Both the position numbers and the translations under genes were made by a program. The notes under the pieces are model-generated. The model was not told the DNA's origin. It worked only from the letters and a program-made list of their open reading frames with translations, and ran no database searches. From Trichocoleus desertorum NBK24 (GTDB lineage: Bacteria > Cyanobacteriota > Cyanobacteriia > FACHB-46), in contig NZ_CP116619.1 of NCBI RefSeq assembly GCF_030409055.1, positions 715,628 through 779,627 on the forward strand: a stretch of 64,000 nt of DNA. The letters run 5' to 3'. This document shows, piece after piece, positions 17,207 through 54,279 of the stretch (position 1 is its first letter; every line of letters begins with the position of its first letter).

Positions 17207-17727
17207 AAATTCCTAACAATTGAGTCTATCTCCTCTGAAATTCTGAGGAGTCTTGCGGTCAACTAAAACGAGATTCCCTTTCAGGTATTACCTAGTCTAA
17301 CGAACTCAGACAAGTCAGTGTAAATACGTATAAAACTAGCTCGTCTTAGTAATATTTAATTTATCTAAAATCCAGAGCCTATGTCTGCCTGAGTCTAACC
17401 GTAACTGCTGGCAATCTTTGCTTTACAGAAACTTCATAAAATACCACCTAAACTACATCGCTAGTTTAACGACGGGTTAAGTAAGTCGATTCAAATTAAG
17501 TAGAGATTAAATTAGAATTAATCCTTGCTTAAACATTTATCAAACTTGATTTTCTGTTTGGAGGTTTCCTTTCTCACCATAGATTTTTAAGTTTTTCTAT
17601 GTGGCCTTTCCTTTAACCACGAGAAATGAACTTTTCTGGTACCTGCATTCTCTTAGGGTGGAGGGCTTTTTCTAGCAACTTTTTCTACTACCTTGCTGAG
17701 TCCCCGATTTCGAGGTGCCGAGCAATC
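17207..17727. other. AT-rich non-coding gap
   Basis: About 520 nt without a convincing gene. A small hairpin CTCCTC (17230-17235) / GAGGAG (17245-17250) 24 nt after the PH-like gene may end its transcript, but there is no T-run. The rest is AT-rich and presumably holds the promoter of the next membrane protein. Confidence 0.5.
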
Positions 17728-18528
17728 ATGATTTCTGTTTCTTCTAGAAAAGTTACTAAATTTTTGGCGTTTGTTGTCTTAGGCTTACTGTCATTTAGTT
17801 TGCTAGGACAACTTTCTAAAGTGATGTGGGGTGGTGAGCATCCGTGGATCGCTTCACTAGCGCATGTCTTTGATATAGATCGAGAAAAAAATCTTCCTAG
17901 TTTATATTCGGCAGCAACGTTATTTATTTGTGCCTGTCTATTGGCTGTGATTGCTACGGTCAAGCACCAGAAACGCGATCGCTACGTTGGGCATTGGGGC
18001 TGTTTATCCTTTATTTTTCTCTTCCTTGCCGCCGATGAATGGACCAGTCTCCATGAAAAAACCATTGAGCCGCTGAGAGCTTTGCTTGGTAGCAATGGCG
18101 GTGGTGCTTTACACTTTGCCTGGGTGCTTCCCGGTGCGCTCTTTGTGGGCCTTGTGGCGATCGCCTATCTCAAGTTCTTAAGAGATTTGCCAACTCGAAC
18201 TAAGCGCCTGCTTTTAACGGCTGGTGCGCTTTTTGTAGCAGGCACTTTAGGGATGGAGATGATAGATGGAGCTTACGCCCATCAATATGGGTTAGCGATT
18301 TGGAACAGAGAAGGCTTAAAACCTACTTGGGAAGCCTTAGTCTACACCTTGATGATGACCTGCGAAGAAGGTCTAGAAATGGCGGGAGTACTGGTTTTTA
18401 TGTATGCCCTAATCTCCTATTTAGGCGATTGCATACAAGAGATCCGCATTCGCATCGATCCGAACAGTCATCCGATTCTGTCTGATGTCGTTGCTGAGGC
18501 AGCGATCCCCAACCGGGGCCGAGTCTAA
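17728..18528 (+). CDS. Polytopic membrane protein, unknown function
   Basis: ATG 17728 (MISVSSRKVTKF) is preferred; an ATG at 17626 would add 34 poorly hydrophobic residues. The 266-residue protein has about six membrane helices. Conserved-looking acidic patches sit in or near them: AADEWTSLHEKTIEPL, GMEMIDGAYAHQ and MMTCEEGLEMAGVLVF. The pattern of acids and His within helices suggests ion or metal chemistry, but I do not recognise the family. Its TAA overlaps the TAG of the convergent hydrolase gene by four bases. Confidence 0.7.
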   Translation: MISVSSRKVTKFLAFVVLGLLSFSLLGQLSKVMWGGEHPWIASLAHVFDIDREKNLPSLYSAATLFICACLLAVIATVKHQKRDRYVGHWGCLSFIFLFLAADEWTSLHEKTIEPLRALLGSNGGGALHFAWVLPGALFVGLVAIAYLKFLRDLPTRTKRLLLTAGALFVAGTLGMEMIDGAYAHQYGLAIWNREGLKPTWEALVYTLMMTCEEGLEMAGVLVFMYALISYLGDCIQEIRIRIDPNSHPILSDVVAEAAIPNRGRV

Positions 18529-49424: not shown

Positions 49425-50684
49425 TTACCAGGGGCCCCAAATTGCAAAGGTAATGCCAGGGGTTTGCATATTAATAAACATCGTTTGACCATCTGGAGAG
49501 AAGCAGACTCCAGCCAGCTCTGATGTGTTGAGGGCATTCCTGGCAAACTTATAAAGACTGCCACTAGGGGTGACACCTAGGATGAAGTCTGTGCCATCGC
49601 CGTCTTCGCAGAGGAAGATATCTCGGTTTGGCACAACCACAATATTGTCAGGATTGTCTAAGACACCAGAGTTGTTGGGCTCAATATAAAGCTCAACAGT
49701 ATTGTTAGCGGGTGAATAGCGCCAGATCTGTCCATCTCCAGAACTACCGCCGCTCTTGCAGGTGAAGTAGACATAACCACCGCCGTAAAAGATCCCCTCT
49801 CCACCAGAGAATCTCGCTGCTCCCTTGTTATACCCCTCTGTTCTAACGGTATCAGTTGAGGGATCGGGATTCGTGATCGTCACCCAGTCCACTGTTTTAG
49901 GAGTATTTTTTGGGAAACCAGAGGCGGTATTGATTCCAGAGGAACCAGTGATCCTCAGAGCAGATAAAGTGCCGCCAGCACTCAAGTTGGTTCTTTGATT
50001 GGGAACGAAGCGATAGAACAGCCCATCCCCTCGGTCTTCCGTCATGTAGACATACCCTGTGTTGGGGTCTACAGCCGCAGCTTCATGATTGAAACGTCCC
50101 ATAGCCGTTAACGGCACAGGTGTCACAAACGCCGTTGCGCTGCTAGGAACTTCAAATACGTAGCCGTGCCTCTTAGTATTGTTGGTTTCAAAGGTTTCCT
50201 CACAAGTTAGCCAAGATCCTGAAGGGGTCGGACCACCCGCACAGTTACGAATCGTCCCTGCCAATACGCCTCGATGCGATACCAGAGTCCGAGTGGGACT
50301 CACCACCAACTTAGTACAGCCACCCCTAGCGTTGGTGTTGTACTTCTTGCTGCTGGGAGCGCTCAAGCCATTGCTAGAGGAAGGAGCGAGTTCATGGTTG
50401 CGGATAAGAACCGTATTGCCGTTGGCATCTGCAAAGGCACCCATCCCGTCATGACCACCAGGCACTTTGTAGCCGTCAGTCATGGTTTGTCCCGTTTCAG
50501 ACAGCCTGCGATAAGTAAACCCAGACGGTAAATCTAAAACCCCCTTTGGGTCGGCCACGAGATTGCCGTAAGGTCCAGCAGCGATCGATGGTTTAGCATA
50601 AAAAGCTTCCAAAGGAGATAACAATACAGCACCCGCAGCCGATGTTCCTGCTAGGGTGAAAAATTGACGTCTTGATAGATTCAC
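49425..50684 (-). CDS. Tat-exported DUF839 (PhoX-family) protein, copy 1
   Basis: 419 residues. The twin-arginine signal SRRQFFTLAGTSAAGAVLLSP directs export. The body shows DUF839/PhoX motifs: PSGFTYRRLSETGQTM, VPGGHDGMGAFA, RNHEL, GGCTKLVV, NCAGGPTPSGSWLTCEET, RFNHEAAAVDPNTGYVYMTEDRGDGLFYRF and FSPDGQTMFINMQTPG. It is shorter than classical PhoX (about 650-700 residues), so it is a distinct subfamily. Probably a calcium/iron phosphatase in the periplasm. A Pho-box-like site lies about 75 nt upstream. Confidence 0.85.
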   Translation of the reverse strand: MNLSRRQFFTLAGTSAAGAVLLSPLEAFYAKPSIAAGPYGNLVADPKGVLDLPSGFTYRRLSETGQTMTDGYKVPGGHDGMGAFADANGNTVLIRNHELAPSSSNGLSAPSSKKYNTNARGGCTKLVVSPTRTLVSHRGVLAGTIRNCAGGPTPSGSWLTCEETFETNNTKRHGYVFEVPSSATAFVTPVPLTAMGRFNHEAAAVDPNTGYVYMTEDRGDGLFYRFVPNQRTNLSAGGTLSALRITGSSGINTASGFPKNTPKTVDWVTITNPDPSTDTVRTEGYNKGAARFSGGEGIFYGGGYVYFTCKSGGSSGDGQIWRYSPANNTVELYIEPNNSGVLDNPDNIVVVPNRDIFLCEDGDGTDFILGVTPSGSLYKFARNALNTSELAGVCFSPDGQTMFINMQTPGITFAIWGPW

Positions 50685-50743
50685 TACAGCCTCTTTATAG
50701 TTTCGGAAAGGTTGTTGCCAACAGGCAGTTTGATTATCTGGGA

Positions 50744-50777
50744 AGGATAAGAATTCTTAGTTTAACTAGAGGCTAAG
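50744..50777 (-). promoter_or_regulatory. Pho-box-like promoter of DUF839 copy 1
   Basis: On the minus strand CTTAGCCT (50777-50770) and GTTAAACT (50766-50759) are two 8-mers spaced by 3 nt, close to the cyanobacterial Pho-box consensus PyTTAAPyPy(T/A). TATCCT (50749-50744) about 9 nt further may be the -10. The same layout is found before the second DUF839 gene. Confidence 0.55.
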
Positions 50778-50958
50778 ATAATCTTATAAAAAGCAAAAAA
50801 GCAGGTTTAAAAACATACAAATTTCTAATCACTGGCCTATTATTAAAAATTACAAACTCTGAGTTGAAAATTAAGATTTTAGATTAAAAATAAAAACTTA
50901 TTTATGACAAGCATCCTACGTTTATGCTTATATTTGTTGTAAGCATGCAGTATTTAAC

Positions 50959-51432
50959 ATGAAATTCTTCAATGAGAAAAAGAGGTTTCTGAAAGTCTTT
51001 AGCCTATTAGTAATGACTCTATTGATGAGTTTAGCAGGAAGTCTTAATCACTCTGTTCTTGCCTCTCAGCAGTTTAATTATCCTACTATCCCCAATGCTG
51101 ATGCTTCTGTATGCTACATGAGGACGACCAGCGGTTCAATTCTCAATCTCGATCGCCTCTGTGGAGAAAGAGAAGTTAAAATAATTCAAACTAGAGATCA
51201 GCAATTTCTTGAAGAATATTTAGGTCTTCTGGCAAGTTCTCCCACGCTCGATCCACAATTAAGGCAAGTAGCACAAAAAAATCCTCGCCGGATTCTTCAG
51301 GTCGCATCGGCTGTGTGTAGTGCTTTAAGAACAAATACCGAAAGCAGTTTTTGGGAAAATAAGATTCCAGCAGATAGAGATATTTTAGTGAATTTATCTA
51401 CTGAGTATTACTGTCGTGATCTTGCTGATTAG
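50959..51432 (+). CDS. Small secreted protein with CYMRTTSG...LCG motif
   Basis: 157 residues. A Sec signal (about 10-36, VFSLLVMTLLMSLAGSLNHSVLA) leads to a mature protein with CYMRTTSGSILNLDRLCG near its N-terminus, a motif seen in many small secreted cyanobacterial proteins, plus two more cysteines (SAVCSAL, YYCRDL). Function unknown. It is divergent from DUF839 copy 1 and convergent to copy 2, so it lies inside the phosphate island. Confidence 0.75.
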   Translation: MKFFNEKKRFLKVFSLLVMTLLMSLAGSLNHSVLASQQFNYPTIPNADASVCYMRTTSGSILNLDRLCGEREVKIIQTRDQQFLEEYLGLLASSPTLDPQLRQVAQKNPRRILQVASAVCSALRTNTESSFWENKIPADRDILVNLSTEYYCRDLAD

Positions 51433-51505
51433 CAGCGATACTCAAGGGATAATCTAGCAGCTTTAAAAGGCTCTTTTGTTCAACCAACTCATTTAGAAGT
51501 TAGCT

Positions 51506-51548
51506 AAAAAATTGCTACCTGAAAACATTTGCCGTTTCCAAGTAGCAA
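51506..51548 (-). terminator. Rho-independent terminator of DUF839 copy 2
   Basis: On the minus strand TTGCTACTTGGAAAC pairs with GTTTTCAGGTAGCAA (15 pairs, two G-U) around a 7-nt loop and is followed by six T (51511-51506). It lies 100 nt past the stop. Confidence 0.87.
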
Positions 51549-51649
51549 CGATTCGCCCAAACATTAACGCAGGTGAGAAGGATAAACGCGATCGCTCTCT
51601 AGAAATGTCAATTCTAAAACATTAAGAGAAAGCAACTAACAAACTTAAA

Positions 51650-52990
51650 CTAAGCTCGGCTCCAAGGCCCCCAAATAGCGTAGGTAATACCAGGAGACTG
51701 AACATTTAAGAACATGGTTAGACCATCGGGAGAGAAGCAAGCACCCGCTACCTCAGAGTCATTGAGGGCATTACGAGCAAACTGATAGAGTTCACCGCTA
51801 GCATTGACACCAACTACAAAGTTGTCACCAGAGCCATCTTCGCAGATGAACAAATCGCCGAAGGGAGAAACCACAATATTGTCTGGAGCTTGTAACTCAG
51901 CTTGCTGAGTAGACTCGACAAACAAAGTTAGAGTGCCGCCATCTTCAGCCGTTTGCCCTGGCACATAGCGCCAAACTTGACCCAATCTGGCAGGGCCGCC
52001 ATCGGTGCAAGTAAAGTACAGCTCGTTATTACCAAACCAAATGCCCTCACCACGGGTAAAGGTAGCTGCTCCCTTCGCACGGCCTTGGAAGCGAGTACCC
52101 GTAGGTGCGCTATCTCTTACTGGATCTGGCTCATCAATTGTGACCCACTCAGCCGCAAACGGTTGGCCGACAGGAATCACAACTGTAGGCAGGTTTCTAG
52201 TCAGCACACCTGTAGGAAAGTCTTTAAGCTTCAGCGCTTGCAGAGTACCCCCCGCCTCTAGTTTGCCAGGTTGGTTGGGGATAAAGCGATAGAACAGGCC
52301 ATCACCCCGATCTTCGGTTTCATAAGCAATGCCTGTGCGAGGATCGATCGCTACTGCTTCGTGATTAAAGCGGCCCATCGCCTTTAGAGGAACTGGATCG
52401 ACAGCTCCTGTTGCGTTAGCAGGAACTTCAAAGTTATAGCCGTGGCGTTTCAAAACTAAACCAGGATTCTCTTCGGGTGTAGAGGTGTTTTCTTCCGAGG
52501 TGAGCCAAGAACCCCAAGGAGTGACACCACCTGCACAGTTACGGAAGGTACCTTGAATAGAAGGAAAGTGCCGAATCAGTTTGCGATTGTTGCCGATCAC
52601 CAATGTGGTCGTACCCCCTTTACACAAGGAGTCATAGACAGGCGCATTCAGGTCAGAAACTTTAGTGCCAGAAGTGGGGCTGAGTTCATGGTTCCGTACC
52701 AGAATTGTGGTGCCGTTAGAACCCGCAAAAGCACCCATGCCGTCGTGACCTCCGGGCACCAGCGAGTTGTTGCTCATGACATCCCCAGTACGGGAAAAAG
52801 CTCGGTACTGGAAGCCACGGGGTAAATCTAAAAGACCATTAGGATCGGGGATGAGCGGGCCATAGCCATCGCCAAATACAGATTGACCGTTCGCTTTGCG
52901 GGCATACAACGCTTGCAAAGGAGACATCATTACCGTACCAGCCGCACTAGCGCCTGCCAGTGCAAAGAATTTACGTCGCGATAAAGCCAT
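51650..52990 (-). CDS. Tat-exported DUF839 (PhoX-family) protein, copy 2
   Basis: 446 residues, clearly a paralogue of the 49425-50684 protein. Tat signal SRRKFFALAGASAAGTVMMSP, then DLPRGFQYRAFSRTGDVM, VPGGHDGMGAFAGSNG, RNHEL, NCAGGVTPWGSWLTSEENTS, RFNHEAVAIDPRTGIAYETEDRGDGLFYRF and FSPDGLTMFLNVQSPGITYAIWGPW. About 27 residues longer than copy 1 by insertions. Probably a periplasmic metallo-phosphatase. Its own terminator lies downstream and a Pho-box-like site about 70-85 nt upstream. Confidence 0.87.
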   Translation of the reverse strand: MALSRRKFFALAGASAAGTVMMSPLQALYARKANGQSVFGDGYGPLIPDPNGLLDLPRGFQYRAFSRTGDVMSNNSLVPGGHDGMGAFAGSNGTTILVRNHELSPTSGTKVSDLNAPVYDSLCKGGTTTLVIGNNRKLIRHFPSIQGTFRNCAGGVTPWGSWLTSEENTSTPEENPGLVLKRHGYNFEVPANATGAVDPVPLKAMGRFNHEAVAIDPRTGIAYETEDRGDGLFYRFIPNQPGKLEAGGTLQALKLKDFPTGVLTRNLPTVVIPVGQPFAAEWVTIDEPDPVRDSAPTGTRFQGRAKGAATFTRGEGIWFGNNELYFTCTDGGPARLGQVWRYVPGQTAEDGGTLTLFVESTQQAELQAPDNIVVSPFGDLFICEDGSGDNFVVGVNASGELYQFARNALNDSEVAGACFSPDGLTMFLNVQSPGITYAIWGPWSRA

Positions 52991-53052
52991 GTCCTTCTCT
53001 CAGTTCTCAGGATGCGTCATCAGCTTAAGCAACGAATCTCATCATCTGGCAA

Positions 53053-53076
53053 AGGATAGATTAATCTTGGGTTAAG
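53053..53076 (-). promoter_or_regulatory. Pho-box-like promoter of DUF839 copy 2
   Basis: On the minus strand CTTAACCC (53076-53069), AAG and ATTAATCT (53065-53058) form two consensus-like 8-mers at 11-nt period, followed by a -10-like TATCCT (53058-53053). The neighbourhood (AAG spacer, TATCCTT, CCAGAT) resembles the site before copy 1. Confidence 0.6.
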
Positions 53077-53160
53077 CAATTGCAGATTTCAATTTTTTTT
53101 GCTGTATTACTTAACACTTTTTGGCAAGATTGCTACTGTCAAGTTAACTCACGGAGCTAC

Positions 53161-54174
53161 TTAGTGGGCAACTAAGTTTTGCTCGACTATTTCCTGCTGG
53201 AAACTGAAAAGATTGGGGTCTTTGAAGTTTACACTTGCTCGTAACCAGTGGACATCTGGTGAGCCAAAGGTTTCAACCCGAGTAAAGTTTTCGATGCGGC
53301 CTTGACTGCGCGAACCGATTAAAGGTTTGTCAATGCGGAAGTAATGGCTATCTCCATGCACTAGGACTACAGGCTTTTTGAAAGCGACAGTTTCAGCTTC
53401 CAAAGCCGCCAGGAAATCGTTGTATCCGGTACGGTTGGGATCGGTAGGAGCTAACTCAAACCCAGGATTGGCTTGAATCACTAGCATGATGCCTTTGCTG
53501 CCGTTGCGGTTGGCGATCGCAAATCCTTCTCTTAACCAAGCTAAATTTGCCGCGTTGCGCTCTTGGTATTCAGCGTCAGCCTCTGGAGTGCGGCCAAAAT
53601 TGTTGTTGCTGCCAGGAATATTCAGCCCCACAAATACAATGTTATTAGAGATCCAGCGGACGTTTTCCCGAAACTTGCTGTACTGCGGAGCGTTGCTTTG
53701 GCGGGTGAGAGCGATCGCGCGTTTACCTTGGCTTTGACTCCCTTGAAAAAAGATTTCCCGCAGTTTAGCCAACCTCTCTATGGGGTCGTAGCCGCCATTA
53801 TTGGCTCGGTGGCAATCCGTCCATTCGTTATCTCCCGGCACAAAAATGAACGGATGCACAAAGGTATTGAACAAGTTGTAACGCTGATAAAACGTTTCGT
53901 CATTGCATAGAGTCGAGCCGCTCTTAAAGTCACCATCATGAACAATGAAAGTGAGCCGTGCCTTGTTCATATCCTGAATCAGGTTTTGGAACTTGCCTTC
54001 CTGCTCAGGGTTATAGGGTAAATCTCCAATCAAACCGAAATCGAACTTGGTAGCCGCTAAACTTTCATTACCAAAAGGTTGAGCTTCTATCAGAGAGACT
54101 AGCCCTACAACAAACAAAGATAACAAGGCAACCCAAAGAAACCGACGACTTCGACGCATCGTTTTTCTTTCCAC
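53161..54174 (-). CDS. Exported metallophosphoesterase
   Basis: 337 residues; ATG 54174, with ATG 54159 (MRRSRR) an alternative. A signal anchor or Sec signal covers about 8-35. Metal-site motifs in order: GLIGDLPYNPEQ (first Asp), VHDGDFKSGS (second), VPGDNEWTDCH (Gly-Asp-Asn) and LVHGDSHYFRID (His-Gly-Asp-x-His). This is a calcineurin-like phosphoesterase acting outside the inner membrane. Its neighbours and upstream Pho-box-like repeats point to phosphate scavenging. Confidence 0.87.
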   Translation of the reverse strand: MERKTMRRSRRFLWVALLSLFVVGLVSLIEAQPFGNESLAATKFDFGLIGDLPYNPEQEGKFQNLIQDMNKARLTFIVHDGDFKSGSTLCNDETFYQRYNLFNTFVHPFIFVPGDNEWTDCHRANNGGYDPIERLAKLREIFFQGSQSQGKRAIALTRQSNAPQYSKFRENVRWISNNIVFVGLNIPGSNNNFGRTPEADAEYQERNAANLAWLREGFAIANRNGSKGIMLVIQANPGFELAPTDPNRTGYNDFLAALEAETVAFKKPVVLVHGDSHYFRIDKPLIGSRSQGRIENFTRVETFGSPDVHWLRASVNFKDPNLFSFQQEIVEQNLVAH

Positions 54175-54249
54175 GTTTTTCCCTCCACAGATAAATGGCC
54201 CTAGCAGATTAAGCCTGAGCCATCACCTTAAGGTATTTTCCTCAACAGG

Positions 54250-54279
54250 AGGGAAAGAACGTGTTAATGATGCGTTAAG
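54250..54279 (-). promoter_or_regulatory. Pho-box-like triple repeat of the metallophosphoesterase
   Basis: On the minus strand CTTAACGC, ATTAACAC and CTTTCCCT are spaced by 3 nt each (ATC, GTT), three 8-mers at an exact 11-nt period as in the cyanobacterial Pho box. The site is 76 nt before the start codon and within 16 nt of the end of argZ. Confidence 0.65.

Follow-up and report, generated by a model that had tools for sequence, protein, structure and literature searches.

Gene content of the island

The 64-kb window analysed here is the whole stretch of DNA from position 715628 to 779627 of the closed 5.46 Mb chromosome of the cyanobacterium Trichocoleus desertorum NBK24. It contains an island of three minus-strand genes, each preceded by repeats resembling the Pho boxes read by the phosphate regulator SphR. 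In order of transcription, the island comprises a gene for a metallophosphoesterase-fold protein (MPE, 53161-54159) and two genes for members of the DUF839/PhoX family, PhoX-2 (51650-52990) and PhoX-1 (49425-50684). PhoX-1 (419 amino acids, aa) and PhoX-2 (446 aa) begin with twin-arginine translocation (Tat) signals, SRRQFF and SRRKFF, and are the only PhoX proteins that a family search recovered from this genome. MPE has an N-terminal hydrophobic helix and a length of 332 aa when read from ATG 54159, which, judged by conservation, is probably its start, rather than GTG 54174. The gene order is identical in the two congeneric genomes used for comparison (G001 and G002), with protein identities of 81-96% (87% for PhoX-2 in G001). 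This island is most likely a phosphate-starvation gene set of a known kind.

Pho-box arrays upstream of the three genes

An earlier note on this DNA had reported repeats at 50777-50759, 53076-53058 and 54279-54250, and their letters, minus-strand coordinates and 8-3-8 spacing proved exact. The two boxes described for each PhoX gene are present, but a third had been overlooked in both cases. Aligned with the congeners, the additional PhoX-1 box TATAAGAT (50788-50781) lies upstream of the noted pair and the additional PhoX-2 box CTTTGCCA (53054-53047) downstream of it, each in the 11-nt register. The complete minus-strand arrays are TATAAGAT-tat-CTTAGCCT-cta-GTTAAACT for PhoX-1 (50759-50788), CTTAACCC-aag-ATTAATCT-atc-CTTTGCCA for PhoX-2 (53047-53076) and CTTAACGC-atc-ATTAACAC-gtt-CTTTCCCT for MPE (54250-54279). 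A downstream context AAG..TATCCTT..CCAGAT, once thought to be common to both PhoX sites, dissolved on comparison: its PhoX-2 part is the third box, and before PhoX-1 only AGATAAT is conserved. TATCCTT..CCAGAT is absent from the PhoX-1 region of G002 and was rejected as a shared element. The conserved AGATAAT, found in the congeners and in most Nostocales orthologues, includes a -10-like hexamer, GATAAT, on the minus strand (50733-50738), 20 nt after the last PhoX-1 box.

This arrangement resembles the SphR-box Pho regulon (Synechocystis sphX, pstS2, phoA; Su et al. 2007, PMC1906773), in which three CTTAACCT-like 8-bp boxes are joined by 3-bp linkers and lie no more than about 125 bp from the start codon. 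That paper lists phoA, nucH, pst genes and PhoD families; DUF839 and metallophosphoesterase were not found in it. Upstream of PhoX-1 and PhoX-2 we recognized such CTTAACCT-like 8-mers with 3-bp linkers clearly, and the MPE array is a weak example.

For scoring, we derived a matrix from the three-box sites published by Su et al., 21 in all, and took as background the 150 bp upstream of 1252 genes located in 1.6 Mb sampled evenly along this chromosome; targeted stretches were covered as well. PhoX-2 reached 18.9 bits, PhoX-1 16.5 and MPE 10.9, and the pstSCAB operon of this chromosome scored 13.0. Three-box scores as high as that of PhoX-1 occurred in 2 of the 1252 genes and as high as that of PhoX-2 in none (0-1 in the gene counts overall), placing both sites in the top 0.16% of sampled genes or better, while 25 genes (2%) equalled or exceeded MPE. 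Compared with intergenic DNA, as had been proposed as a check, the PhoX sites thus stand above nearly all of it and at or above pstSCAB, and the MPE site is weak. The specificity of the matrix is modest genome-wide, and therefore it is conservation that carries the case for Pho boxes.

Conservation of the arrays

Across the three genomes, identity inside the PhoX-1, PhoX-2 and MPE sites was 95, 93 and 87%, respectively, vs 66, 66 and 44% elsewhere in their spacers. The MPE spacer is poorly conserved as a whole, and the array is the part of it that is conserved best, with 2 of 106 windows as good. We further fetched 80 PhoX relatives from cyanobacteria and scored the 77 for which upstream DNA was available; these samples are not independent (many are from Nostoc), so the percentages are descriptive. 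The median of the best three-box score was 17.7 bits vs 6.2 for the reversed sequences, and 77% of the regions reached at least 14 bits vs 6.5% of the reversed ones. In Nostocales, the PhoX-1 orthologues carry the boxes AATAATCT-ttt-TTTAACCT-ctt-ATTAATTT at a distance from the start equal to that of the PhoX-1 array, followed about 20 nt downstream by the AGATAAT element.

Of the 291 cyanobacterial genomes sampled, 28 contain relatives of MPE, mostly without boxes and not beside PhoX (median three-box score 3.1 vs 0.2 reversed). A distant lineage in which MPE precedes PhoX (L197/G126, L142) has the array CTTAACGA-gag-GTTAATCG-aat-CTTTACCT in the same register, scoring 21.8 bits.

Two predicted PhoX-type phosphatases

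DUF839 is the old name of the PhoX family (PF05787), which PhoX-1 and PhoX-2 match with 266 and 304 bits vs a cut-off of 24 (E-values 1.5e-78 and 3.5e-90). A phmmer search of PDB sequences with PhoX-2 retrieved Pseudomonas fluorescens PhoX (1.5e-11). The AlphaFold model of PhoX-1 (predicted local distance difference test, pLDDT, 86) adopts the PhoX beta-propeller fold, and its best PDB match was again this enzyme (4a9v, E 3.2e-19; next match, 6e-09). With P. fluorescens PhoX (4a9v/3zwu) the two proteins share family, fold, Tat export and, in the residue numbering taken from PDB alignments, the equivalents of Cys179, Glu273, Asp292 and Glu387, which are invariant in 79 relatives, both window proteins included. 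Cys179, Glu273 and Glu387 we take to be metal-site residues of PhoX. PhoX-1 and PhoX-2 differ from this enzyme (~590 aa) in being only about 420-446 aa long, with shortened loops. Arg385 and Asp292 are among the PhoX active-site residues, and the position of Arg385 is occupied by Lys in Psip1 (Psip1 paper). PhoX-2 keeps the Arg385 equivalent and every other active-site residue that we tested, whereas PhoX-1 has Gly at this position and Lys at the Thr403 equivalent, i.e., it is of an R385G/T403K type. Judged by sequence, both are predicted to be Tat-exported PhoX-like alkaline phosphatases.

The metallophosphoesterase-fold protein

MPE matched no Pfam or NCBIfam family, Metallophos (PF00149) included; its remote relative L032 exceeds the Pfam Metallophos cut-off with 1.3e-05. 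The MPE model (pLDDT 84) matched calcineurin-like phosphoesterases, e.g., Lmo2642 (2xmo), SMPDL3A, GpdQ and PhoD, with template-modelling scores up to 0.53, and is alike to them in overall fold. Canonical calcineurin-like enzymes bind their metals through the motifs DxH, GDxxD, GNH[ED] and GHxH. This set was not found in MPE, whose conserved motifs are GDLPY (GD-LPY), DGDFKSG, GDNEWTDC and GDSH: GNH[ED] has become GDNE, GHxH has become GDSH, and the DxH counterpart is without its His. Because the metal-binding motifs are degenerate, phosphatase activity is not secured and should not be assumed, and the name "phosphatase" would be a guess. The protein probably either leaves the cytoplasm or is anchored in the membrane, and its metal site is probably altered.

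Proposed regulation by SphS/SphR and alternative explanations

The genome encodes PhoU and an SphS/SphR-like pair, in which a 253-aa OmpR-type regulator (G000:C1:4306822-4307520), the second-best match to the PhoB profile, adjoins a PAS-HisKA-HATPase kinase that begins with a short hydrophobic segment. This pair has the SphR/SphS layout and was identified by its architecture. Under phosphate scarcity, this PhoR/PhoB-type two-component system would become active, and SphR would bind the 8-bp direct repeats, which recur every 11 bp ahead of PhoX-2, PhoX-1 and MPE, and activate the three transcription units. Both PhoX proteins would then be exported folded via the Tat route and may hydrolyse phosphomonoesters outside the cytoplasm to liberate phosphate, using an Fe/Ca centre of the PhoX type.

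In the Nodularia spumigena stimulon of phosphorus limitation, a PhoX-like gene, a DUF839 gene (log2 increases of 7.0 and 6.3) and a metallophosphoesterase gene were strongly induced (PMC9846622), i.e., the same types of genes as in the island. We consider SphR control well supported, although not proved, because of the boxes, their conservation, the SphS/SphR-like pair and the induction of the Nodularia homologues; it is very likely for the PhoX genes and likely for MPE. The earlier proposal that the whole set is under SphR/PhoB control is supported by the PhoX scores, the cross-species conservation of all three arrays and the regulatory pair, with conservation carrying the part that concerns MPE. 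For the complete reading, a phosphate-starvation island under SphS/SphR via Pho boxes, we estimate a probability of about 0.82.

Several observations weigh against it. The two-box score of MPE is matched by 14% of genes and is thus not exceptional. Intergenic two-box matches of at least 14 bits numbered 27 vs 15 in the reversed-sequence control, a modest genome-wide enrichment. Windows outside the sites also reach site identity, 8 of 256 in the PhoX-1 spacer and 16 of 141 in the PhoX-2 spacer. Boxes are missing before about a dozen PhoX relatives, those of Acaryochloris and Prochloron among them. Finally, the Nodularia study reports an unsuccessful search for a conserved P-box ahead of its P-stimulon genes (PMC9846622); there, expression was shown and no box was found, whereas here boxes were found and are known from sequence.

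The ordinary matrix score of MPE (14% of genes by two boxes, 2% by three), together with the scarcity of boxes before its relatives elsewhere and their distance from PhoX, would fit an arrangement in which only PhoX-1 and PhoX-2 are Pho-controlled and MPE simply lies beside them, its repeat having arisen by chance or being used differently. We regard this as unlikely, as the MPE array is the best-conserved part of its spacer and recurs in register in the distant lineage. Somewhat less likely still is binding by another OmpR-family regulator or another factor reading TTAA instead of SphR. About ten full-length PhoB-like regulators are encoded in the genome, direct TTAA arrays double as inverted repeats, and unrelated genes such as that of a membrane protein at 17626-18528 carry arrays of similar score. 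However, both the spacing and the letters of the pattern agree with the published SphR consensus, most related genomes have the arrays in front of phosphatase genes, and homologues are responsive to phosphate limitation. Pho boxes are short and degenerate, and their forward counts exceed the reversed ones only modestly genome-wide, as would also be expected from chance TTAA repeats in AT-rich spacers. Such an origin appears very improbable given arrays before three adjacent phosphatase-type genes (joint gene-level tail near 1e-8 if independent) and a register conserved between genera.

Probable origin of PhoX-1 and altered active-site position of its clade

A tree built from 79 proteins nested PhoX-1 within a Nostocales clade (support 99/94), and on this tree a recent tandem duplication giving rise to PhoX-1 and PhoX-2 was rejected. 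PhoX-1 is 88.5% identical to a Nostoc protein; in the same set, the best non-congeneric match of PhoX-2 reached 70.5%. Because of this nesting and the high identity to Nostoc, PhoX-1 was probably acquired laterally, promoter included, with a Nostocales lineage as the presumed donor; this is the most parsimonious reading.

At the Arg385-equivalent position (equated by PDB alignment, R-P-E on R-G-E), Gly is found in PhoX-1 and its 15 clade mates, and Arg in all 63 other proteins. Besides this replacement, only three positions are fixed differently in the clade, one of them being Thr to Lys at PhoX-2 residue 329 (PhoX 403). The same all-or-none pattern recurred in an independent sample of genomes. 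The model of PhoX-1 puts Gly294 and Lys310 opposite each other at the ends of a single beta hairpin (strands 295-301 and 304-312), which makes a charge swap between the two positions plausible. As a tentative idea, which we hold to be somewhat less probable than its opposite, the PhoX-1 clade, passed on laterally together with its Pho-box promoter, might represent a second solution to phosphate binding within the PhoX family, in which the substrate arginine Arg385 is lost and a Lys on the facing strand of the same hairpin takes the place of the Thr403 equivalent.

Neighbouring genes and further arrays

Divergent from PhoX-1, the plus strand encodes a 157-aa secreted protein of unknown function (50959-51432), with 81% identity in G001 and G002. 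A 26%-identical relative follows PhoX directly in four Microcoleus loci, and the protein has weak similarity to DUF732; a role as partner of PhoX is possible. A Pho box driving this gene found no support, as no strong box was present on its own strand.

Elsewhere on the chromosome, two paralogous multi-pass membrane proteins without Pfam match are encoded by genes at 17626-18528 (+) of the window and at L018:10593-11333 (+). The TTAA arrays before them (window 17463-17544; L018:10480-10522) are among the highest-scoring that were found in the chromosome. Related proteins are encoded by 63 of 291 cyanobacterial genomes; of 30 scanned, 30% had three-box scores of at least 14 bits (none when reversed), and several carry the inverted repeat TTAACC-N3-GGTTAA in place of the array. 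The best three-box array found (25.5 bits, L013:7435-7464) precedes the gene of a small DUF3147 membrane protein (L013:7088-7429, minus strand). In addition, two open reading frames (L014:1096-1887 and 1926-2657) seem to make up one PhoD-type phosphatase, possibly owing to a frameshift, and a Pho-box-like site lies upstream.

Implications for phosphate acquisition in cyanobacteria

These results place the abundant short PhoX enzymes of cyanobacteria under a recognizable Pho box across many genera, and such a box is now seen where a recent transcriptome study had found induction without one. If the proposal for the PhoX-1 clade is true, its members may differ in substrate range, and the Arg-to-Lys change reported for Psip1 would be a comparable case. 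With a pair of PhoX copies that seem to be controlled alike and that differ at one catalytic position, the island constitutes a natural experiment on the role of Arg385 and bears on the question of why cells keep two PhoX enzymes.

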